Shown one piece after another: positions 7,919-62,155 of a stretch of 64,000 nucleotides of DNA. The translations under genes were made by a program, and so were the position numbers. Origin of the DNA: Exiguobacterium sp. s146 (GTDB lineage Bacteria; Bacillota; Bacilli; Exiguobacteriales; Exiguobacteriaceae); contig NZ_JACSMA010000002.1 of assembly GCF_018618415.1 (NCBI RefSeq), positions 62,001 through 126,000 of the forward strand. Reading direction: 5' to 3'. The notes beneath the pieces were generated by a model, which did no database searches, had not been told where the DNA came from, and saw nothing but the letters and a program-made list of their open reading frames with translations. The stretch's first letter is position 1. Every line of letters begins with the position of its first letter.

Positions 7919-8000
7919 GTTGGTTTCCTCCTCATGATTGAGAGCTTATACTATTGACTTGATGGAGAGCACGGGGGTAATCAGTTAGTTCGAGAAAAGT

Positions 8001-8018
8001 TTGTGCTTTCCTTCACAT
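8001..8018 (-). promoter_or_regulatory. Rex-like operator 1 of adhE
   Basis: TTGTGCTTTCCTTCACAT (plus strand) matches TTGTGAA-N4-TTCACAA in the left TTGTG and the right TTCACA. It sits about 85-100 bases upstream of the adhE start, close to where the promoter should be. Rex is the redox repressor that senses the NADH/NAD ratio in Gram-positives. Confidence 0.55.
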
Positions 8019-8059
8019 TCATAGAATACAATGTTTCTCATAGTTTGTGCGTGACAAAA

Positions 8060-8077
8060 ATGTGAACTCTTTCACAA
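8060..8077 (-). promoter_or_regulatory. Rex-like operator 2 of adhE
   Basis: On the minus strand TTGTGAAAGAGTTCACAT, an almost perfect Rex palindrome (TTGTGAA-N4-TTCACAA with one end mismatch). It lies 59 bases further upstream of operator 1, allowing cooperative binding or looping. Confidence 0.75.
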
Positions 8078-8133
8078 TATTTTTTAAGAGAATGTGGATT
8101 GGTCTTGCTTTTTAGGGTGACGCTCAGTAAAAT

Positions 8134-8147
8134 CGAATGCGTTTTCA
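8134..8147 (-). promoter_or_regulatory. cre-like site (one to two mismatches)
   Basis: TGAAAACGCATTCG on the minus strand resembles the CcpA consensus. Shares the adhE-marR intergenic region with the perfect cre at 8170. The 7919-8299 region has no convincing gene; a 62-codon frame there has neither codon support nor a good start. Confidence 0.4.
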
Positions 8148-8169
8148 TGAAAACCAGGTCCGCTGTATA

Positions 8170-8183
8170 TGTAAACGCTTACA
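8170..8183 (+). promoter_or_regulatory. perfect palindromic cre site
   Basis: TGTAAACGCTTACA is fully symmetric and matches the CcpA consensus TGWAARCGYTWNCW at every position. It lies about 250 bases upstream of adhE and about 85 bases upstream of the MarR gene promoter, so it may act on either. Confidence 0.75.
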
Positions 8184-8266
8184 AAGATTGTGTCCGTGAC
8201 GAGGCGAATTCACTGTGCAAAATATCACGGGATGAGGATTCGTCGTCCACCCCGCGCTCGGTCGTG

Positions 8267-8272
8267 TATAAT
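8267..8272 (+). promoter_or_regulatory. putative -10 box of the marR-type gene
   Basis: TATAAT in GTGTATAATGAAG, 28 bases before the start codon. No consensus -35. Confidence 0.45.
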
Positions 8273-8299
8273 GAAGAAAGAACCTAATTAGGAAGTGAC

Positions 8300-8752
8300 A
8301 TGATTATGCCAAGACAAGACGCAGCCGATCAGTTCGTGAAACTGATTCCATTAATTCGCCGGAAGTTGTTACGTCGTTCCGACCTTCCGCAAATCCCAAA
8401 CTTAAACTTTTCCCACTTTCATCTCCTCATGTTGATTGAAGATGAAGGCGCAGTCACGAACGGGCATATCAGTGAGACGTTATCGATTGCCCCGCCGAAC
8501 GTGACGCCGCTCATCACGAAGCTCGTCGAGGAAGGCTATATCACCCGCGTGCCAGACGAACGCGATCGCCGGGTCATCTGGAACCAACTGACCGATAAGG
8601 GCGAACTTGTCCTCCGCGAGCGCCGCGATTCGTTTCGCCGGCTGTTCGAGGACCGTCTCGCGTTTCTGAACGATGAAGAGACGGACCGCCTGTTTGACAG
8701 TTTGAAGACGTTGACGGAGATCGTCGAGAAGATGGATAAGAGCGAGGGATGA
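8300..8752 (+). CDS. MarR-family transcriptional regulator
   Basis: Small DNA-binding repressor, 150 residues, probably a homodimer. The central winged helix-turn-helix is visible: HISETLSIAPPNVTPLITKLVEEGYITRVPDERDRR (shown here only as its landmarks: APPNVTPLI recognition helix, then the wing RVPDERDRRVIW). It has the family pattern of flanking dimerisation helices. Two ATGs lie close together (8300 and 8306); AGGAAG precedes both. The ligand and targets are unknown; the immediate neighbours are divergent adhE and the downstream YeeI-type gene, and the intergenic cre may contribute to its control. Confidence 0.85.
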   Translation: MIMPRQDAADQFVKLIPLIRRKLLRRSDLPQIPNLNFSHFHLLMLIEDEGAVTNGHISETLSIAPPNVTPLITKLVEEGYITRVPDERDRRVIWNQLTDKGELVLRERRDSFRRLFEDRLAFLNDEETDRLFDSLKTLTEIVEKMDKSEG

Positions 8753-8831
8753 TTTTTGCTCGTCAACATCCACGTCTTCTTATATAATCGAGGATGAATC
8801 AATCGAACAATGGAAAGAGAGATGACATGTA

Positions 8832-9542
8832 ATGGGTCGTAAATGGAACAACATTAAAGAGAAAAAGGCGTCAAAAGACGCCAATACGAGTCGCATCTAC
8901 GCGAAGTTCGGCCGTGAAATCTACGTAGCCGCCCGTCAAGGGGAACCAGATCCAGAATCAAACCAAGCGCTCAAGTTCGTCGTCGAACGGGCGAAGACGT
9001 ATAACGTCCCGCGCGCCATCATCGACCGCGCCATCGACAAAGCAAAAGGCGGCGACGAAGAGAACTTCGACGAGCTCCGCTATGAAGGGTTCGGGCCGAA
9101 CGGCTCGATGCTCATCGTCGACACGCTCACGAACAACGTCAACCGGACGGCATCTGAAGTCCGGGCCGCATTCGGTAAAAATGGCGGCAACATGGGTGTC
9201 AGCGGCTCGGTCGCTTACATGTTCGACGCGACGGCCGTCATCGGTGTCAACGGCATGTCTGCTGACGACGTACTTGAACTCATGATGGAACACGACCTCG
9301 ACGTCCGTGATGTCATCGAAGAAGATGAGACGGTAATCGTCTATGCGGAACCAGAAGCGTTCCATGCCGTCCAGACTGCCTTCAAAGCAGCGGGCATCGA
9401 GACGTTCGAAGTCGCCGAGTTGACGATGTTGCCACAAAACGAGATCGCCCTCGACGACGAGTCGAAAGAACAGTTCGAAAAACTGCTCGACGTCCTCGAA
9501 GACCTCGAAGACGTGCGCCAGGTGTACCATAACGTGGAATGA
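8832..9542 (+). CDS. YebC/PmpR family protein, YeeN/YeeI subgroup
   Basis: 236-residue member of the YebC/TACO1 family. The start [16 protein letters not shown], with [16 protein letters not shown] and [14 protein letters not shown], is typical of the YeeN (E. coli) / YeeI (B. subtilis) branch, as is [17 protein letters not shown]. Long annotated as transcription regulators, these proteins are now linked to relief of ribosome stalling at proline-rich sequences, so a translation role is more likely. A -10-like TATAAT at 8783-8788 suggests its own promoter. Start is ATG with AAGAGAGATG upstream. It ends in a strong terminator. Confidence 0.93.
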
Positions 9543-42539: not shown

Positions 42540-42570
42540 ATGGCCTGATCATCGCGATCAGGCCATTTTT
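42540..42570. terminator. terminator GDSL gene / GNAT gene (convergent)
   Basis: ATGGCCTGATC and GATCAGGCCAT arms, 5-nt loop, then five T. The minus-strand GNAT stop lies at its right edge. Confidence 0.88.
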
Positions 42571-43241
42571 CATCGTTCATATTTGACGAGCCAGCTCTCT
42601 CCATTACGCTCCATCGTCGTCCCGAACCAACCTGCCTTCAATAAGGCGACTTGTTGCTCGGTCTCGCCCATATCAAGCCACTTCGTTTCACCGTGCGGTC
42701 GCCAGTCGCTGTGCAGTTCCTTCATAAAAATGTAGCGCAACTTGCCGCCATATTTCGGTTTAAGGGCACCGATGCGAAGGCCGAGGGCGAACTTGTCCTT
42801 CAGACTCGGGATATTGAAAGGTGCCACGGTCGCACAGACGAGATCGAACCGACTCCCATGTTCAAGCTCTTTCATGAGGAGCTTGCCGAGATGCTGTTGC
42901 AGGCCGTAACCGCGATAGTCCGGATGGACGTTCGTCACTTCTTGATACAAGATGCGGTCGAGCGCATCAGACGGATAACCGATATCGTATCCTAGATGCT
43001 CCTCGTCGAGCGGCGGGATGAGCAGTGCACGGAACGCGATTAACGTCCCTTCATGAAACGCTCCAATCAAGGTGCGGTCGGTCAACAGCTTCACGAACTC
43101 CTCGGTCGTGAGCGATTGATACTGACTCCCTTCCGTCAACGTGTCCATGACGGCCTGTTGCACCGCCTCGATCTGTTCGAGCTCTGTCATCGTCAAATAG
43201 TTGACCTCGATGTCGAGGCCGTTACACTCACCGTGCCACAT
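42570..43241 (-). CDS. GNAT family N-acetyltransferase linked to the epimerase gene
   Basis: 223 residues from the ATG at 43241, chosen since GGAGGG precedes it by seven bases; a further upstream ATG (43262) has no site. The N-terminal ~90 residues include the first GNAT strand and a long helix (LEQIEAVQQAVMD); the acetyl-CoA-binding region is DYRGYGLQQHLGKLLM (Q/RxxGxG/A variant). The C-terminal part from about 190 (WLDMGETEQQVALLKAGWFG) is outside the core GNAT fold. It overlaps the epimerase 3' end by 14 bases, so the two enzymes probably act on related compounds. Substrate unknown. Confidence 0.82.
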   Translation of the reverse strand: MWHGECNGLDIEVNYLTMTELEQIEAVQQAVMDTLTEGSQYQSLTTEEFVKLLTDRTLIGAFHEGTLIAFRALLIPPLDEEHLGYDIGYPSDALDRILYQEVTNVHPDYRGYGLQQHLGKLLMKELEHGSRFDLVCATVAPFNIPSLKDKFALGLRIGALKPKYGGKLRYIFMKELHSDWRPHGETKWLDMGETEQQVALLKAGWFGTTMERNGESWLVKYER

Positions 43242-44358
43242 GGTCGGACCCTCCGACGACATACGTCGCCGTCGTCAGACGTGACAGAACGGCCTCATCG
43301 ACGTCGACACCGAGACCGGCTCCATCGGACAGGCGGATGAACGGCAAGTCATACACCAAGTTGCCGATGTCTTCAGCGAACCGAAGCGGCCCTGTCAATT
43401 CGACCGATTGGACGATTTTACTCGAGAAGGCGACATGGAAGCCTGCGCTCGAGGCGACCGACGATTCGACCATCGACCCGATTTGACACTCGATGCCCGA
43501 CATTTCGGCCATGTGGACGAGCTTTTTCGCCGGGTAGATGCCGCCGCACTTCATCAATTTGATATTCACTTTGTGGGCGGCCTGCATCATCGTCAACCGA
43601 CGCATCTCAGGGATGCCGCGTACGCCCTCGTCTATCATGAGCGGCACCGAAATCTTCCCTTTCACTTCGACCATGCCTTCAAAGTCGTCGGCCTTGACCG
43701 GCTGTTCGACCCAATCGATTTGGAACGGTTCAAGTTGCTTCATCGCTTGCAGTGTCTTAGCGGCATTGACCCAGCCCTGATTGACGTCGACCCGAATCGG
43801 CACATCCGGACCAACGGCACGCCGAACCGCCTCGACACGGCGTACGTCCGAGGCGACATCGACTCCGACTTTCATCTTGACGGCCGTGTACCCTTGCTCG
43901 ATCTGTTCGCGGGCCTCGGCCGCCATCGCCTCCGGCTCCCCGATACTGAGGACGTGTGTGACCGGGAAGGCGTCGTGATACCGGCCGCCGAGCAAATCAT
44001 ACACCGGAAGCCCGAGCTTTTTCCCGACGACGTCATGACAGGCGATATCGAGCGCCGCTTTCGCCGCCGGCACGTCACGGATTGCCCGGTCCATCACGTC
44101 GTGAATCCGTTCCATCTGCATCGGGTTTTCGCCGATCAAGAGCGGGCCGAGCACATGTCGAATCACACTGATTGTACTATCAAGCGATTCGCCCGTGACG
44201 TGTTCATCGGCGACGGCCTCGCCATAGCCGACATGACCACATTCGGTCGTCAATTTCACGATCACTGACGGCATGTCGTCATAACGATGGTAACTGACGA
44301 TAAATGGGACCTTTAACGGCAGTCGAATCGCAAACAGTTCAATCTTCTCTATTCTCAT
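43228..44358 (-). CDS. enolase-superfamily epimerase/racemase (MLE subgroup)
   Basis: 376 residues from the ATG with AAGGAG seven bases upstream (two codons into the longest frame). An N-terminal capping domain, then a TIM barrel. General-base motif KMK (Lys161, Lys163), metal ligands Asp191 (RVDVNQGW), Glu218 (WVEQP) and Asp243 (MIDEG), second lysine region VNIKLMKCGG (Lys267/270). This is the dipeptide-epimerase/o-succinylbenzoate/muconate-cycloisomerase layout. The DxD that binds the dipeptide amino group in Ala-Glu epimerases is replaced by ELTGPLRF, so the substrate is uncertain. Followed by an overlapping GNAT; divergent from a regulator. Confidence 0.85.
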   Translation of the reverse strand: MRIEKIELFAIRLPLKVPFIVSYHRYDDMPSVIVKLTTECGHVGYGEAVADEHVTGESLDSTISVIRHVLGPLLIGENPMQMERIHDVMDRAIRDVPAAKAALDIACHDVVGKKLGLPVYDLLGGRYHDAFPVTHVLSIGEPEAMAAEAREQIEQGYTAVKMKVGVDVASDVRRVEAVRRAVGPDVPIRVDVNQGWVNAAKTLQAMKQLEPFQIDWVEQPVKADDFEGMVEVKGKISVPLMIDEGVRGIPEMRRLTMMQAAHKVNIKLMKCGGIYPAKKLVHMAEMSGIECQIGSMVESSVASSAGFHVAFSSKIVQSVELTGPLRFAEDIGNLVYDLPFIRLSDGAGLGVDVDEAVLSRLTTATYVVGGSDHVAR

Positions 44359-44395
44359 ATCCATTCTCCTTTACTTTTTCTAAGTCATTAGTTAT

Positions 44396-44420
44396 ATTGT
44401 CGTTAAATAGTCGTTAAATT
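44396..44420. promoter_or_regulatory. paired GTCGTTA repeat, probable operator (copy A)
   Basis: ATTGTCGTTAAATAGTCGTTAA contains GTCGTTAAAT twice, 11 bp apart, i.e. on one face of the helix. It lies between the divergent epimerase and regulator genes and recurs in front of the NhaC gene at 47105. Confidence 0.6.
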
Positions 44421-44436
44421 GCAAGGAGGAGTTCTC

Positions 44437-45630
44437 ATGTCCATCCATATCGCCATCGTCGGTTCGCACGAGTTCGTAGCGATGATTCGCTCGCTCGGTT
44501 CACCTGAGGATGTCCGATTCGCCTATCATCCGTATGAGCATCCGCACGAGGCCGCGACCATCGCCCAAACGCTCGGCTCGTTCGATGGTGTCTTTTTTTC
44601 CGGTTCGTTCCCGTTCACCTATGCGACCCCTCATCTCAACCACGTGGCGGCGCATCACGTCGTCCAAGACGAAACTGTCCTCTTGACGACGCTGCTCTAT
44701 GCGACGCTCACCCACTCCGTGTCGCTCGATCAAGTATCCATCGATTTGGTCGACCCGGAACGGCTGACGTCGATTCTCGACTCGTTCCCGAACGAACAGG
44801 GCCCCCCCGCCGTGATGCGAATCCATCCCGAGCTCGCCTTCGAGGACGTCACTGCTTTTCATACCAGCCATCAAGCCGGACATGCGAAATTGGCCATCAC
44901 GAGCATCGAGCGCGTGCATCATGAGCTCGTTCGTGCCGGGTTCAACAGTCAACTGATGATTGAGCCGACAACGACCGTCAAGCGACATCTCGACCAGTTG
45001 ATTCAACAAGTGCGGCAACAGTTGGCCGATGCCGCCCAATTCGCCATCATCCGCTATGAAACGGACGATCCGACGCTGCTTGACCATCTTGCCTCGGTCC
45101 GGTATTTGGGTGGACATCTCGCATCGACGCAGGAGCGACACATCACGATCTTGACGACCAAAGGTGAAGTGAGGAACGCGTTCGATGAAGATACGCTCGC
45201 ACCGAACGGGTCATACCGCATCGGAATCGGCTACGGGCCGGACTATCAACTAGCGGACGAACATGCCGACATCGCCTTGTCTGCCGCGAGTGACGAACGC
45301 ATCCGCATCGTCGATGATTCGAAACGATTATCGTTCCCGACCCGTGACGCGCAGATCCCGTACCGGGTGACGGAACAACTCGCCTTCGACTTCATCAAAC
45401 AAGCCGGGGTCAGCCCGGTCAATATCGGGAAGATTTTAAAGTTCGCCAAACGCAAGCACGAATTCACGGCAAAAGAGTTGACCGACTATCTCGACGTGAC
45501 GCGACGGACGACGGAACGGCTCATCAAAAAACTTCATGACGCCGGCATCGTCGATGTGATCGGCGAAGAGATGAGTTATGGTCAAGGCCGGCCCCGTGCC
45601 GTCTATAAATTCAATTTCCCGACCTCATGA
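44437..45630 (+). CDS. transcriptional regulator with C-terminal winged helix and unusual sensor region
   Basis: 397 residues from ATG 44437 (AAGGAGGAG upstream). The C-terminal 325-395 is a winged helix-turn-helix (EFTAKELTDYLDVTRRTTERLIKKL, summarised by TAKELTDYL and RRTTERLIKKL). Residues 1-120 look like a Rossmann-like sensing domain (IHIAIVGS, GVFFSGSFPFTY). The middle (about 195-315) resembles a degenerate GGDEF/cyclase fold (RIGIGYGPDYQLADEHADIALSAA in outline; no GGDEF active site), inferred only. I do not recognise a named family. Divergent from the epimerase, next to the NhaC gene, and its likely operator occurs at both promoters. Confidence 0.72.
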   Translation: MSIHIAIVGSHEFVAMIRSLGSPEDVRFAYHPYEHPHEAATIAQTLGSFDGVFFSGSFPFTYATPHLNHVAAHHVVQDETVLLTTLLYATLTHSVSLDQVSIDLVDPERLTSILDSFPNEQGPPAVMRIHPELAFEDVTAFHTSHQAGHAKLAITSIERVHHELVRAGFNSQLMIEPTTTVKRHLDQLIQQVRQQLADAAQFAIIRYETDDPTLLDHLASVRYLGGHLASTQERHITILTTKGEVRNAFDEDTLAPNGSYRIGIGYGPDYQLADEHADIALSAASDERIRIVDDSKRLSFPTRDAQIPYRVTEQLAFDFIKQAGVSPVNIGKILKFAKRKHEFTAKELTDYLDVTRRTTERLIKKLHDAGIVDVIGEEMSYGQGRPRAVYKFNFPTS

Positions 45631-45646
45631 GGCCGGGAAATTTTTT
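45613..45646. terminator. bidirectional terminator regulator / nhaC
   Basis: AATTTCCCG-CCTC and GAGG-CGGGAAATT arms with one bulged base. The regulator TGA stop lies in the loop; T-run follows on the plus strand. Confidence 0.85.
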
Positions 45647-47072
45647 ATTGCGCAGCTTGCTGTTCAATCGGTGGTTCTGCACTCAACACAGCAATCCGCT
45701 CAATCGTGAACCCTGTGAACGCATAGATGATTGAAATGACAGGCACGATAAAGTTGAGAATGGCGTATGGCGCGTACTCGAACGCCCCGACGCCGAGCGT
45801 CCCGAGAATGAACACACCGCACGTATTCCATGGGATGAAGACCGACGTGAGCGTGCCGCCGTCTTCGAGTGCCCGTGACAAGTTCTTCGAATGCAGCCCC
45901 ATCTTCTCATAGGCACTGGCGAACATGCGCGACGGCACGACGATCGAGATGTATTGCTCGGAACATGATGCGTTCGTCGCGAACGCCGCTAAAATCGTCG
46001 AAGCGACCATCGATCCGGCCGTTTTCGCCAGCTTGACGATTTGATTCATGATGGACTGGAGCATGCCCGAGTATTCTAAAATCCCCCCGAACGTCATCGC
46101 GACAATCGTCATCGATACGGTATACATCATCGCATCGAGACCGCCCCGGCTGAACAAGTTATCGACCAGTTCATTGCCGGTATCGATCACATATCCACTT
46201 TGAAGCGCCCCGACACTGTCCGAAAGCGATCCACTTTGCACGACGACTTGCGCCAAAAAGCCAAGAGCGATGCCGACGACGAGCGCTGGTATGGCCGGTA
46301 CTTTTTTCGCGACGAGCGCGATGACGGCGAGTGGGATCATGAGCAACCACGGTGAGATGACAAAGCTATCTTTTAAAATAGCGAGCGTCTGCACGATTTC
46401 CGACGAATCCGTCGTCGTCTCACTGAACCGGCGACCGAGCCACCAATACGCGCCAAGGGCGATCATCAGGCCCGGAATGGTCGTATACAGCATGTGACGG
46501 ATATGTACGAATAAATCGGTATATGTCAAACCGGCCGCCAAGTTCGTCGTATCCGACAACGGCGACATCTTGTCCCCAAAATAGGCGCCTGAAATGACGG
46601 CTCCGGCGACCATCGGTGCTGGTATCCCCATACTGAGCCCGATGCCCATCCCGGCGACGCCGATTGTTCCCATCGTCGACCACGAGCTGCCGATTGATAA
46701 AGCGACGACCGCACAGATGATACAAATCGTGACGAGGAAATAGGCCGGTGAGATAATCGTCAGCCCATAATAAATCATCGTCGCGACGACGCCTCCCCCA
46801 ATCCACGCCCCAATCGTCAAACCGACCAAGATGATGATGACGACCGCCGGCAAGGCAAGTCGGATCCCTTTATACATCATCTCTTCAATCTCTTTCCACT
46901 TATACCCGTGTCGCCAAGCGACGAGTGCCGCCACCGCCGTCCCGATGATGAGCGGGATGTGTGGCCCTTGTTTTAATTGGACGATGGCCACGAGCATGAC
47001 CCCGATCATGACAAGTAACGGCAGTATCGCCCAACGAAGCTTCATGTCTACCTTGTTCCCCTGTTGTTCCAT
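45645..47072 (-). CDS. NhaC-family Na+/H+ antiporter
   Basis: 475 residues, about twelve hydrophobic spans. N-terminal cytoplasmic MEQQGNKVDMKLRW then IPLIIGTAVAALVAW. Family motif region GAVISGAYFGDKMSPLSDTTNLAAG, GSSWSTMGTIGVAG and the C-terminal RALEDGGTLTSVFIPWNTCGVF are typical of NhaC. Bacillus relatives can couple sodium to malate/lactate or amino-acid-like anions (MleN), so a metabolite exchanger is possible. RBS GGGGAGG before ATG 47072. The shared GTCG repeat and a cre-like site precede it. Confidence 0.9.
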   Translation of the reverse strand: MEQQGNKVDMKLRWAILPLLVMIGVMLVAIVQLKQGPHIPLIIGTAVAALVAWRHGYKWKEIEEMMYKGIRLALPAVVIIILVGLTIGAWIGGGVVATMIYYGLTIISPAYFLVTICIICAVVALSIGSSWSTMGTIGVAGMGIGLSMGIPAPMVAGAVISGAYFGDKMSPLSDTTNLAAGLTYTDLFVHIRHMLYTTIPGLMIALGAYWWLGRRFSETTTDSSEIVQTLAILKDSFVISPWLLMIPLAVIALVAKKVPAIPALVVGIALGFLAQVVVQSGSLSDSVGALQSGYVIDTGNELVDNLFSRGGLDAMMYTVSMTIVAMTFGGILEYSGMLQSIMNQIVKLAKTAGSMVASTILAAFATNASCSEQYISIVVPSRMFASAYEKMGLHSKNLSRALEDGGTLTSVFIPWNTCGVFILGTLGVGAFEYAPYAILNFIVPVISIIYAFTGFTIERIAVLSAEPPIEQQAAQ

Positions 47073-47104
47073 GTGTCTTCCTCCCCGATAGCGAAAGATT
47101 CTGA

Positions 47105-47127
47105 ATTGTCGTTATATTGTCGCTAAT
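47105..47127 (-). promoter_or_regulatory. paired GTCGYTA repeat, probable operator (copy B)
   Basis: ATTGTCGTTATATTGTCGCTAAT: GTCGTTA and GTCGCTA 11 bp apart, the same layout as the copy at 44396. Located 33-55 bases upstream of the nhaC start, overlapping the probable promoter. Confidence 0.6.
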
Positions 47128-47134
47128 AAGATGA

Positions 47135-47148
47135 TGATAACGCTTACA
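47135..47148 (-). promoter_or_regulatory. cre-like site upstream of nhaC
   Basis: TGATAACGCTTACA has one mismatch to the CcpA consensus. Immediately upstream of the GTCG repeats. Confidence 0.5.
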
Positions 47149-47161
47149 TGAAAAGATGGCA

Positions 47162-47200
47162 ATAAAAAAATGAACGGAAGCGAATTCGCCTCGTTCATTT
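47162..47200 (-). terminator. terminator of the M20 amidohydrolase gene
   Basis: AAATGAACG and CGTTCATTT arms plus an inner GCGAATTCGC stem; TTTTTTTATT follows on the minus strand. Confidence 0.85.
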
Positions 47201-47206
47201 CGTCGT

Positions 47207-48304
47207 TCATGTCGTATGGACGGCCCGTCGCAACGTATCGGCGAGCAGACCGGCCGCTTCCGGCAGAACGCCGCGATCGAATGTCATCTGTGGATGATGG
47301 AGCCCGGGTGTCAGGTTGGCGCCGATGCCAATCATCGTCGCATCGAGTCCCGGCTGTTCGACGGTGTAGAAATGAAAATCGTCGCTACCTGACGTGATAA
47401 TGCGGTCGACGAGCGCATCGGCCCCGAACCGCTCGCTAATTGCTTCGGCCGCATGACGGCTCGAACGTTCTCCAATCAGAGCGCCCGGTGTGAAATCTTG
47501 CCATTCCCAGTCGATCGTCACCCCATGCAAAATTGCAATCTGGTGCAACATCGTCTCGACCCGGTCGCGCAACTCGAGCAGTTCCTTGTTCTGTTGGGCC
47601 CGGACATCGATCGAGAATGTCGCGTTGCCGGGAATGATATTCAAATTGTCACTTCCCGCCTGCACGCCCGTCAATTTAATCGAATGCGGTTCGAACGGCG
47701 ACAAATAGATGCTTTTAAGCATCTGTTGAATCGTGAAGATGACGTCTAACGCGTTCTGGCCTTGGTGCGGCCGCGCGCCGTGGGCGTCGGCCCCGCTGAT
47801 GTTGCCTTTCAAGAAGAACGCGGCCCCATGTTGAATCGCAGCCGCATATTGACCGCGTTTCAGTTCTTCGAGCGGACGCAAATGGATGCCGTACAGCTGA
47901 CTGACATCTTTTAACGCCCCGTGTCGAATCATTGCGAGCGACCCGTTGCCTTGTTCTTCCGCCGGTTGGAAAATAAACCGGACCCGTTTCGGCAGGTGTT
48001 TGTGCCGCAACGCATCGAGTGCGCCGAGCACCATGCTCATATTGGCATCGTGGCCGCACGAATGGTTGGCTTGGAACGTCCCGTCGACTTGTTGCCATAA
48101 GGCGTCGATATCGGCCCGGACCGCGATGACGTCGTCTCCTTCCCCAATTTCGGCGATGACACCGGTGACGTCGGTAAACGTCTCGTGACGGACTTGCCAT
48201 GACGTCAAGATGTCGGCGATCGTCTTCGTCGTCTCAATTTCTTTCCAACTCACTTCCGGATGGGCATGAAAATGCTCAAACCAGTTCAATACGTTCGTCA
48301 TCAT
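47207..48304 (-). CDS. M20D-family amidohydrolase
   Basis: 365-residue metal-dependent hydrolase like hippurate hydrolases, N-acyl-amino-acid amidohydrolases and diaminopimelate deacylases. Metal-binding motifs: ADIDALW, NHSCGHDANM, FQPAEEQGNGS (catalytic Glu pair), GIHLRP, and the distal LHHPQM. The dimerisation domain holds ISGADAHGARPHQGQNALD. ATG 48304 or the next codon; GGGGG is upstream. The C-terminal region is intact. It is encoded directly upstream of nhaC and near the epimerase, which fits a pathway that deacylates an imported amino-acid conjugate. Confidence 0.9.
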   Translation of the reverse strand: MMTNVLNWFEHFHAHPEVSWKEIETTKTIADILTSWQVRHETFTDVTGVIAEIGEGDDVIAVRADIDALWQQVDGTFQANHSCGHDANMSMVLGALDALRHKHLPKRVRFIFQPAEEQGNGSLAMIRHGALKDVSQLYGIHLRPLEELKRGQYAAAIQHGAAFFLKGNISGADAHGARPHQGQNALDVIFTIQQMLKSIYLSPFEPHSIKLTGVQAGSDNLNIIPGNATFSIDVRAQQNKELLELRDRVETMLHQIAILHGVTIDWEWQDFTPGALIGERSSRHAAEAISERFGADALVDRIITSGSDDFHFYTVEQPGLDATMIGIGANLTPGLHHPQMTFDRGVLPEAAGLLADTLRRAVHTT

Positions 48305-60691: not shown

Positions 60692-62155
60692 TCATAACGT
60701 CGAACCGAGCGCCCGGGCGACATGTAGCCCGCTCGTCATCGCCCCGATCGTCCCGGCGCCTGGAAATACCGTGTCGCCGCAGACGTAAAAATTCGGAAGG
60801 TTCGTCCGATAGCTCGCCGCATGGAATAACGCCTGTCGCGGTGTTTGGGCATATCCACCGACCGCACCGTGCGGACGTTTCGTATATTTCACCCACGCTC
60901 CAGGTCCGCCCGGAAGCAGCACCGACGATGTACCAGTCCAACTCGGGAACGCTCGTCTCACTGCCGTGACGAGGCGTTCGGTCCATTCTGCTTCTAGTTT
61001 CTCATACGTCGCCTTATCTTTCCAAGCCTGCCATTCCGACAACTCGATATGGGTCGAGATGGTCAACGTACGTTCCGGTCGTTCAGTCCGGCGCGAATCG
61101 TCCGTAGCCGACATCGAGATAAAGGCATGACCTGATGGCAAGTCGTCACTATACACTTGTTGAAAGAGCGGACGTCCCGTGCACACCGCTTCCGGTAACG
61201 TGATATACAGACTGAACGTCCCCCATTGTGTACGTTCCAGTTGACGGCCGTACTGTCGTTGGAACTGGCGCGCCGCTTGTCCCGTGACCAACTGCGCGGT
61301 CGCCTCGAGCGGAATGGCTGAGACGACGACATCGACGAGGTCGAGCCGCCCCCGGCGATCGGTCAACAACCAGCCGTCCGCGACTTGTTCAATTTTCACG
61401 ATTTGCCGACCGAGGAGCGTCGTCCCGTCTGCTTGGCGAATCGACCGCTCCAAGGCGTGTGCGAGCGTATACAAGCCCCCATCGACGTAGAACGCCCCTT
61501 CATGATAGATCGATAACGCGACGGCCGCGAGCAAGTGGCTCGCTTCACGGGCACCGGTCTGCAAGCTATCAAGCAATATGCCGTCGATGACCTGTTCGAA
61601 GGTGGTCCCGTTCAATCGATGATGTGACAACGTCGTACCAAGCGGTCGATATAGCTTCCGGAACGCCTGAAGCTGGGCCGGTCGAAACGCACGAATCGCA
61701 TCCGTCGCGTCACGAACCGTCCGAAATGGCAATGCCGGTAGTGTCTCAAACAACGGACGAATCGTCTCGAAATCGGCCCACACTTCATTCAAGAAGGCAC
61801 GAATCTGCGGAGCGAGCTCCGGAAACGTCGCCTCGAGTTCTGCTAAAAACCGATTCCGGTCTTGATGATAGCGGATCGTCTTTCCATCGAGATGAATCTG
61901 CATCACCTCAGGTAATGGACGAACGTCAATCGTTTCACCTAAATAAGATAAGACCCGCTCATGCAGGCCGCCTGGTTCAAATCCCATCCCAAGCGTCGCG
62001 CCGGCCGGGAACCGATAGTCCCCACGTTCAAATTTGCCGGCGCAACCGCCCCATTCTCGTGACGACTCGTATACGGTCACGTCATGGCCGATCCGGCTCG
62101 CGAGCGCCCCCGTCGTCAATCCGGCAATTCCCCCACCGATAATCCCGATTCGCAT
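60692..62155 (-). CDS. CrtI/phytoene-desaturase-type FAD oxidoreductase
   Basis: 487 residues. N-terminal FAD motif GIIGGGIAGLTTGALASRIG and the following VYESSREWGGCAGKF; the C-terminal FAD region FYVCGDTVFPGAGTIGAM is family-typical. Resembles carotenoid desaturases/isomerases (CrtN/CrtP, CrtI, CrtISO), but there is no crtM, crtB or other carotenoid gene in the window, so a retinoid- or other lipid-modifying role is equally possible. ATG 62155 has GGAGGGG upstream. Overlaps nothing; ElaA-like gene follows. Confidence 0.8.
   Translation of the reverse strand: MRIGIIGGGIAGLTTGALASRIGHDVTVYESSREWGGCAGKFERGDYRFPAGATLGMGFEPGGLHERVLSYLGETIDVRPLPEVMQIHLDGKTIRYHQDRNRFLAELEATFPELAPQIRAFLNEVWADFETIRPLFETLPALPFRTVRDATDAIRAFRPAQLQAFRKLYRPLGTTLSHHRLNGTTFEQVIDGILLDSLQTGAREASHLLAAVALSIYHEGAFYVDGGLYTLAHALERSIRQADGTTLLGRQIVKIEQVADGWLLTDRRGRLDLVDVVVSAIPLEATAQLVTGQAARQFQRQYGRQLERTQWGTFSLYITLPEAVCTGRPLFQQVYSDDLPSGHAFISMSATDDSRRTERPERTLTISTHIELSEWQAWKDKATYEKLEAEWTERLVTAVRRAFPSWTGTSSVLLPGGPGAWVKYTKRPHGAVGGYAQTPRQALFHAASYRTNLPNFYVCGDTVFPGAGTIGAMTSGLHVARALGSTL

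Follow-up and report, generated by a model that had tools for sequence, protein, structure and literature searches.

A predicted and conserved regulon for N-acylamino-acid racemization in Exiguobacterium, with a tandem operator that follows its helix-turn-helix regulator

Do five adjacent genes that have so far been given only loose family names form a regulon, and which of them belong to it? We asked this of a locus in a 64,000-nucleotide stretch of DNA (the window; positions 62,001 to 126,000 of contig NZ_JACSMA010000002.1, assembly GCF_018618415.1) from Exiguobacterium sp. s146. The initial annotation had placed an enolase-superfamily epimerase, a GNAT-like acyltransferase, a novel regulator, an NhaC antiporter and an M20 amidohydrolase under one operator. 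The analysis points to a predicted regulon that is conserved and wider than first seen, with one of the five genes outside it in the window organism; its enzymes belong to familiar types. We give a probability of about 0.72 to the reading that the regulator is an autoregulated repressor controlling the epimerase (hereafter the N-acylamino-acid racemase), the GNAT-like protein and the NhaC-family carrier. This reading would give the gene set a job, namely the import and remodelling of modified, probably succinylated D-amino acids.

A paired GTCGYTA repeat had been described between the divergent epimerase and regulator genes and again upstream of nhaC. The gene order, including the repeat between the divergent genes, is as described, and the two near-identical tandem pairs stand; the 11 bp reported as spacing is the period of the repeat, the spacer being 4 bp, and the operator reads GTCGYTA-N4-GTCGYTA. 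Its heptamer copies are GTCGTTA at 44399, 44410 and 47108, and GTCGCTA at 47119. No heptamer pair with a 9–13 bp spacer was found in the window. The single heptamer was rejected as a signal, being at chance level (15 in the window against 15.7 expected); the special feature is the pair. With 0 mismatches, the pair GTCGYTANANNGTCGYTAA occurs at only two places in the 2.85-Mb genome, both in the cassette; two mismatches bring three further matches, and the reversed control likewise brings three. A third half-site 11 bp ahead of operator 1 (a two-mismatch match) was judged not essential and is lost in a second Exiguobacterium group. In the nhaC leader (47087-47106), ahead of the nhaC ribosome-binding site, a conserved TAGCGAA (TTCGCTA on the reverse strand) resembles an inverted extra half-site.

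Both sites are conserved within the genus. The 19-bp form GTCGNTANANNGTCGNTAA has 33 matches across 19/19 Exiguobacterium genomes, all at the cassette by coordinates, with 0 for the reversed control. Operator 1 was found with at most one mismatch in 18/19 Exiguobacterium loci, and operator 2 is invariant in 18/18 nhaC promoters, within a longer conserved block; an operator common to the regulator/racemase and nhaC regions is thus upheld. In L045 (genome G002), an 11-bp deletion in the racemase-regulator gap took out one repeat unit of operator 1, leaving a natural half-operator next to an intact regulator. The order of the five genes holds at the window locus and at every one of the 18 other loci except L053, which lacks nhaC. 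In L039 (genome G015, 7983-9188), a stop interrupts the regulator and the rest of the cassette, both operators included, persists.

One of the five genes did not fit the proposal of a single operator. The M20 amidohydrolase scores 265.6 bits with TIGR01891 (cut-off 153.75), its nearest solved relative being YxeP (1ysj). It lies upstream of nhaC and is separated from it by a terminator-like hairpin, and a search allowing up to one mismatch found no site ahead of it or ahead of the DoxX-like gene 17 bp further upstream; control of M20 by operator 2 was hence rejected for the window organism. Here M20 appears from its sequence context to be a pathway neighbour and not a shown target.

The operator was then sought in 151 genomes of a second bacterial family. 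In 72 of them GTCGYTANNNNGTCGYTA is found without mismatch, 79 times in total. The regulator is no more than 6 kb away from 68 of these sites, where 0.13 would be expected; 56 stand ahead of its start and 12 past it. As orthologues we took the first 76 rows of the regulator match list, a cut of our own, falling in 73 genomes. A nearby exact site is present in 62 of these 73 genomes, while a site of any location occurs in 8 of the 78 others, in none of the eight next to any listed racemase gene. Fisher's p for the association of site and orthologue over the 151 genomes is 2e-31, relatedness being ignored. Among the 11 orthologue genomes without a nearby exact site, nine have one nearby with 1-2 mismatches. 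Genome G181 carries a cassette without M20 (L105) and a remote exact site 18 bp ahead of the called start of an M20 reading frame (L230), as the regulon model would predict; the motif itself can hence locate further pathway genes. In genus g46, where the site lies past the regulator, it stands ahead of a DcuC-family carrier followed by M20 (L111), directly ahead of M20 (L233), or ahead of a further stretch and then M20 (L232). A separate observation concerns GTCGCTAATACGTCGTTA, which recurs in five genomes of genus g149 (G434, G457, G469, G497 and G503) that have no orthologous regulator, and which may sit inside a conserved gene.

At the level of the class (398 genomes), the regulator family matches 117 genomes at E 1e-8, and 61 genomes carry GTCGYTANNNNGTCGYTAW without mismatch, at 86 places in all. 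Of these 86 sites, 77 are no more than 10 kb from a family member, a limit chosen after the data were seen: 35/35 in Exiguobacterium (by coordinates) and 42/51 elsewhere. A site with at most one mismatch was found in 45 of 51 locus records with a regulator (one locus is counted twice, L058 being L128), against 1 of 17 racemase loci without a regulator. The 51 records include regulators only 23-28% identical to that of the window. These distant regulators have no operator upstream; their sites were found downstream of the regulator, ahead of a racemase (L118, L130), a DcuC-family carrier (L056) or a solute-binding protein (L265). Related genomes also carry a second, remote site, ahead of a racemase in L241 and L243 and of a peptide-ABC permease in L264 and L266; L132 has a site as well. 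Carrier type thus varies (NhaC, DcuC-family, peptide ABC) while racemase, regulator and operator persist. In a tree of 64 family members, a branch supported at 100/99 separates the 51 cassette-type regulators from the rest; this label was assigned by locus and takes in L228, which has no site. A plasmid collection yielded a single distant relative of the regulator, in Bacillus badius, at 22% identity. The genome, genus, second-family and class scans together led us to reject a chance origin of the repeats.

In sequence, the tests suggested by the initial annotation came out in its favour: orthologous promoters keep the repeat, both within Exiguobacterium and in the second family, and the genes stay together in relatives and are co-inherited. 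Its choice of the regulator as the likely binder also gains weight, as the site follows the regulator family and is missing from 16 of the 17 racemase loci that have no regulator.

PDB entries 2p88, 2p8b and 2p8c we take to be the N-succinyl-Arg/Lys racemase of Bacillus cereus; the window racemase shares with 2p88 227 of 364 residues (62%), and KMKV, DVNQ, EQP, KLMKCGG and ELTGPL stand at equal positions in both. By full-length similarity, and with catalytic lysines and metal ligands present, it belongs on sequence to the B. cereus type. The criterion for an L-Ala-D/L-Glu epimerase is a DxD motif. This dipeptide epimerase identity was rejected for the window enzyme, in which ELTGPL replaces DxD and the scores are 163 bits against 500 for NF041118 and 88 against 343 for NF011708; the earlier suggestion of a substrate other than Ala-Glu is strengthened, since ELTGPL is common to the racemase and 2p88. 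It is possible, although we do not favour it, that the racemase acts on dipeptides or other N-acyl amino acids and that the regulon serves peptide or N-acetyl-amino-acid use and not N-succinyl D-amino acids: peptide-ABC permease or solute-binding genes lie behind the operator in related regulons, many loci outside the second family have no GNAT, and the enolase family is broad. The likeness to 2p88 speaks for succinylated substrates instead, as does the GNAT gene, which adjoins the racemase gene in 24 of the 25 loci L093-L117. PMC4372640, citing Song et al. (2007), gives the enzyme of B. cereus ATCC 14579 as a predicted N-succinyl-arginine racemase. In titles, abstract openings and selected passages of the open-access papers searched, no regulator or operator was found reported for the B. 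cereus racemase, nor was any report found of the regulator or operator described here, which does not show their absence from print.

The carrier belongs to the NhaC family by its TIGR00931 score (cut-off 370); an ArcD model, at 369 bits for a cut-off of 650, was rejected. Its promoter bears a box corresponding to what we take to be the CcpA (cre) consensus, with 0 mismatches in 16 and one mismatch in 2 of the 18 Exiguobacterium nhaC promoters, a fit equalled by 0-2 of 100 shuffles; the box is absent from L054 and L055, of another bacterial family. The nhaC carrier may hence be under carbon catabolite repression as well. NhaC could instead simply exchange Na+ and H+ for pH control and share the operator incidentally; its family score would allow this, and PMC6331483 interprets the nhaC copies of E. 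chiriqhucha RW2 in this way. We regard this as unlikely: the operator is kept at nhaC in all 18 Exiguobacterium loci having the gene, the cre-type box suggests control by carbon source, and DcuC-family or peptide-ABC carriers replace NhaC in related regulons. The swap for DcuC-family carriers supports, without proving, a role in carrying the substrate rather than in pH control. One Exiguobacterium nhaC copy read as a pH antiporter in PMC6331483 is predicted by the repressor reading to be a catabolic carrier.

The direction of control is suggested by the promoters. A scan of the region returned 10 promoter-like sites against 4.5 in shuffles. The regulator promoter ends on the base immediately ahead of operator 1 and the nhaC promoter ends 8 bp ahead of operator 2; judged by eye, the same promoter-operator layout is found in L054 and L055. 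The racemase promoter is less clear, its -10 box being either TATAAC or GACAAT, and operator 1 covers its -35/spacer region. In both the regulator and the nhaC promoter the operator meets the -10 box or follows it closely, which favours repression. A regulator that activates, or plays both roles by aiding polymerase at the racemase promoter and blocking the other two, would agree with the site over the racemase -35/spacer region, where activators can bind, and with the Pfam description of PrpR_N as coming from the propionate catabolism activator. Such a regulator is nonetheless rather improbable: in the regulator and nhaC promoters, the two clearer ones, no more than 8 bp part the -10 box from the site after it. 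This suits a repressor, and the layout is repeated in another family.

Several observations weigh against the repressor reading. Only 27 of the 51 class-wide sites outside Exiguobacterium lie within 2 kb of a family member, and 9 of all 86 are not near a listed one; among these nine, one precedes the M20 gene of G181 and one lies 1.5 kb from a racemase gene (G186). By hand count, reversed patterns gave about 60 matches in the 151 second-family genomes and about 55 in the 398 class genomes; because these totals are not empty in the larger scans, the evidence lies in clustering at the regulator and not in totals. No site with one mismatch or fewer was found at six regulator loci (L057, L059, L060, L061, L062 and L121), and none with up to two at L227, whose regulator is broken, or at L228; conversely, L110, whose genome has just a paralogue at another place, retains a one-mismatch site ahead of nhaC. 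The racemase promoter is weak, M20 has no operator ahead of it in the window organism, and the role proposed for NhaC as substrate carrier is drawn from context. The GNAT-like protein has no strong family match: Pfam Acetyltransf_1 gave E 0.15 and 12.8 bits, below the gathering score of 20.7, and PDB matches were found only at E 0.33 or worse. The regulator was modelled with AlphaFold on seven sequences; the model is of modest quality, with a mean pLDDT of 64.5 and values below 50 for residues 76-176, and a Foldseek search with it returned no match below E 0.001, which says little given the weak model. That a different DNA-binding protein owns the operator and that the regulator gene is merely its neighbour is very improbable: the binder is assigned by sequence, L110 has the site but no orthologous regulator and the six loci above keep a regulator without a site, but the site tracks the regulator family in both the class and the second family, is missing from 16 of the 17 racemase loci that have no regulator, and stays with the regulator while the adjacent carrier varies.

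Table 1. Positions in the window of the cassette genes and of the promoters, operators and other elements predicted around them.
Feature	Coordinates	Strand	Remarks
GNAT-like acyltransferase, 230 aa	42570..43262	-	Start overlaps racemase gene end by 35 bp
Enolase-superfamily N-acylamino-acid racemase/epimerase	43228..44364	-	62% identity to PDB 2p88, shared catalytic motifs
Regulator promoter TTTACT-17-TATATT	44370..44398	+	9/12 consensus positions; conserved
Operator 1, GTCGTTA-AATA-GTCGTTA	44399..44416	+	Also spans divergent racemase promoter region
Regulator, 397 aa (alternative start 44419)	44437..45630	+	PrpR_N-like, GTP-cyclohydrolase-III/GGDEF-like, winged helix
NhaC-family carrier	45645..47072	-	TIGR00931 443 bits
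Operator 2, GTCGTTA-TATT-GTCGCTA	47108..47125	+	Just past nhaC -10 box
nhaC promoter TTGCCA-17-TATCAT	47134..47162	-	10/12; top promoter-like site in region
CcpA (cre)-type box ATGTAAGCGTTATCA	47135..47149	-	Overlies nhaC promoter
Terminator-like hairpin with T run	47177..47192	-	3' of M20, separates M20 and nhaC
M20D amidohydrolase	47207..48304	-	TIGR01891 266 bits; no operator ahead of M20 in window

At the far end of the cassette, a strong two-way terminator-like hairpin (42540-42566) lies between a GDSL esterase gene and the GNAT-like gene.

No library searched has a name for the regulator family. Only HTH_11 passes in a Pfam search with the window regulator, which Pfam and NCBIfam recognise by its helix-turn-helix alone; over 31 members, at E of at most 0.1, Pfam gave HTH_Crp_2 in 24, HTH_11 in 23, GGDEF_GdpP in 8, GCH_III in 7 and PrpR_N in 7. 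A second structural aligner placed first the PrpR/NtrC-type N-terminal domains 2q5c (Z 11.5, 95 residues, rmsd 2.3) and 2pju (Z 11.3, 98 residues, rmsd 2.3), then the winged helix 6xjf (Z 10.6, 81 residues, rmsd 2.1) and GTP cyclohydrolase III 2qv6 (Z 10.2, 94 residues, rmsd 2.7). LacI-type, adenylyl-cyclase and other folds follow at Z 9-10, so these domain matches are fold-level hints. A GGDEF diguanylate cyclase was rejected, the GGDEF/GGEEF motif being absent from the window regulator and the likeness being at fold level only. The regulator diverges far faster than its racemase, NhaC and HtrA-like neighbours, though its operator is frozen; in the most distant Exiguobacterium species it retains 50-51% identity, against 76-79% for the racemase.

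From these elements we propose a working mechanism. The winged helix of the regulator would bind the tandem direct repeat GTCGTTAWATAGTCGYTAAT. At operator 1 the bound regulator would overlie where its own promoter starts, along with the promoter region of the divergent racemase and GNAT genes; at operator 2 it would overlie the nhaC promoter start. A small ligand held by the PrpR_N-like part, probably an acylated or D-amino acid, would release it, and a nucleotide on the cyclase-like part would perhaps tune this release. The carrier would import an amino-acid derivative, the GNAT would acylate the D-form, probably with succinyl, the racemase would invert the acylated D-form and M20 would hydrolyse the L-form. 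For a family whose window member is recognised by its helix-turn-helix alone, this would supply an operator, a set of target genes and a probable class of substrate. More tentatively, and with considerable doubt, the class-wide family may keep one tandem operator down to 23-28% identity while commanding interchangeable racemase, carrier and M20 modules, its cyclase-like domain sensing GTP or a related nucleotide; the use of D- or N-acylated amino acids would then hinge on both substrate and nucleotide state.

Among known systems, the closest enzyme is the B. cereus N-succinyl-Arg/Lys racemase, similar over its full length, in its catalytic motifs and in ELTGPL. Work on Geobacillus reportedly established a succinyltransferase-racemase-desuccinylase route from D- to L-amino acids, and the GNAT, racemase and M20 hydrolase genes side by side resemble that route; the window cassette, with its predicted activities, also has a carrier of the NhaC family, together with a divergently oriented regulator and a tandem operator. 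With PrpR (PF06506; 2pju, 2q5c), the regulator appears to share the N-terminal ligand-binding fold, but it has a winged helix and its promoters are of the sigma-70 type. No AAA+ sigma-54 domain is among the families for the window regulator or among the 25 shown for the 31 members, and a PrpR-type sigma-54 activator was rejected, the PrpR_N-like part standing without AAA+. The middle domain, finally, resembles GTP cyclohydrolase III (2qv6) and the GGDEF domains of the GdpP type.

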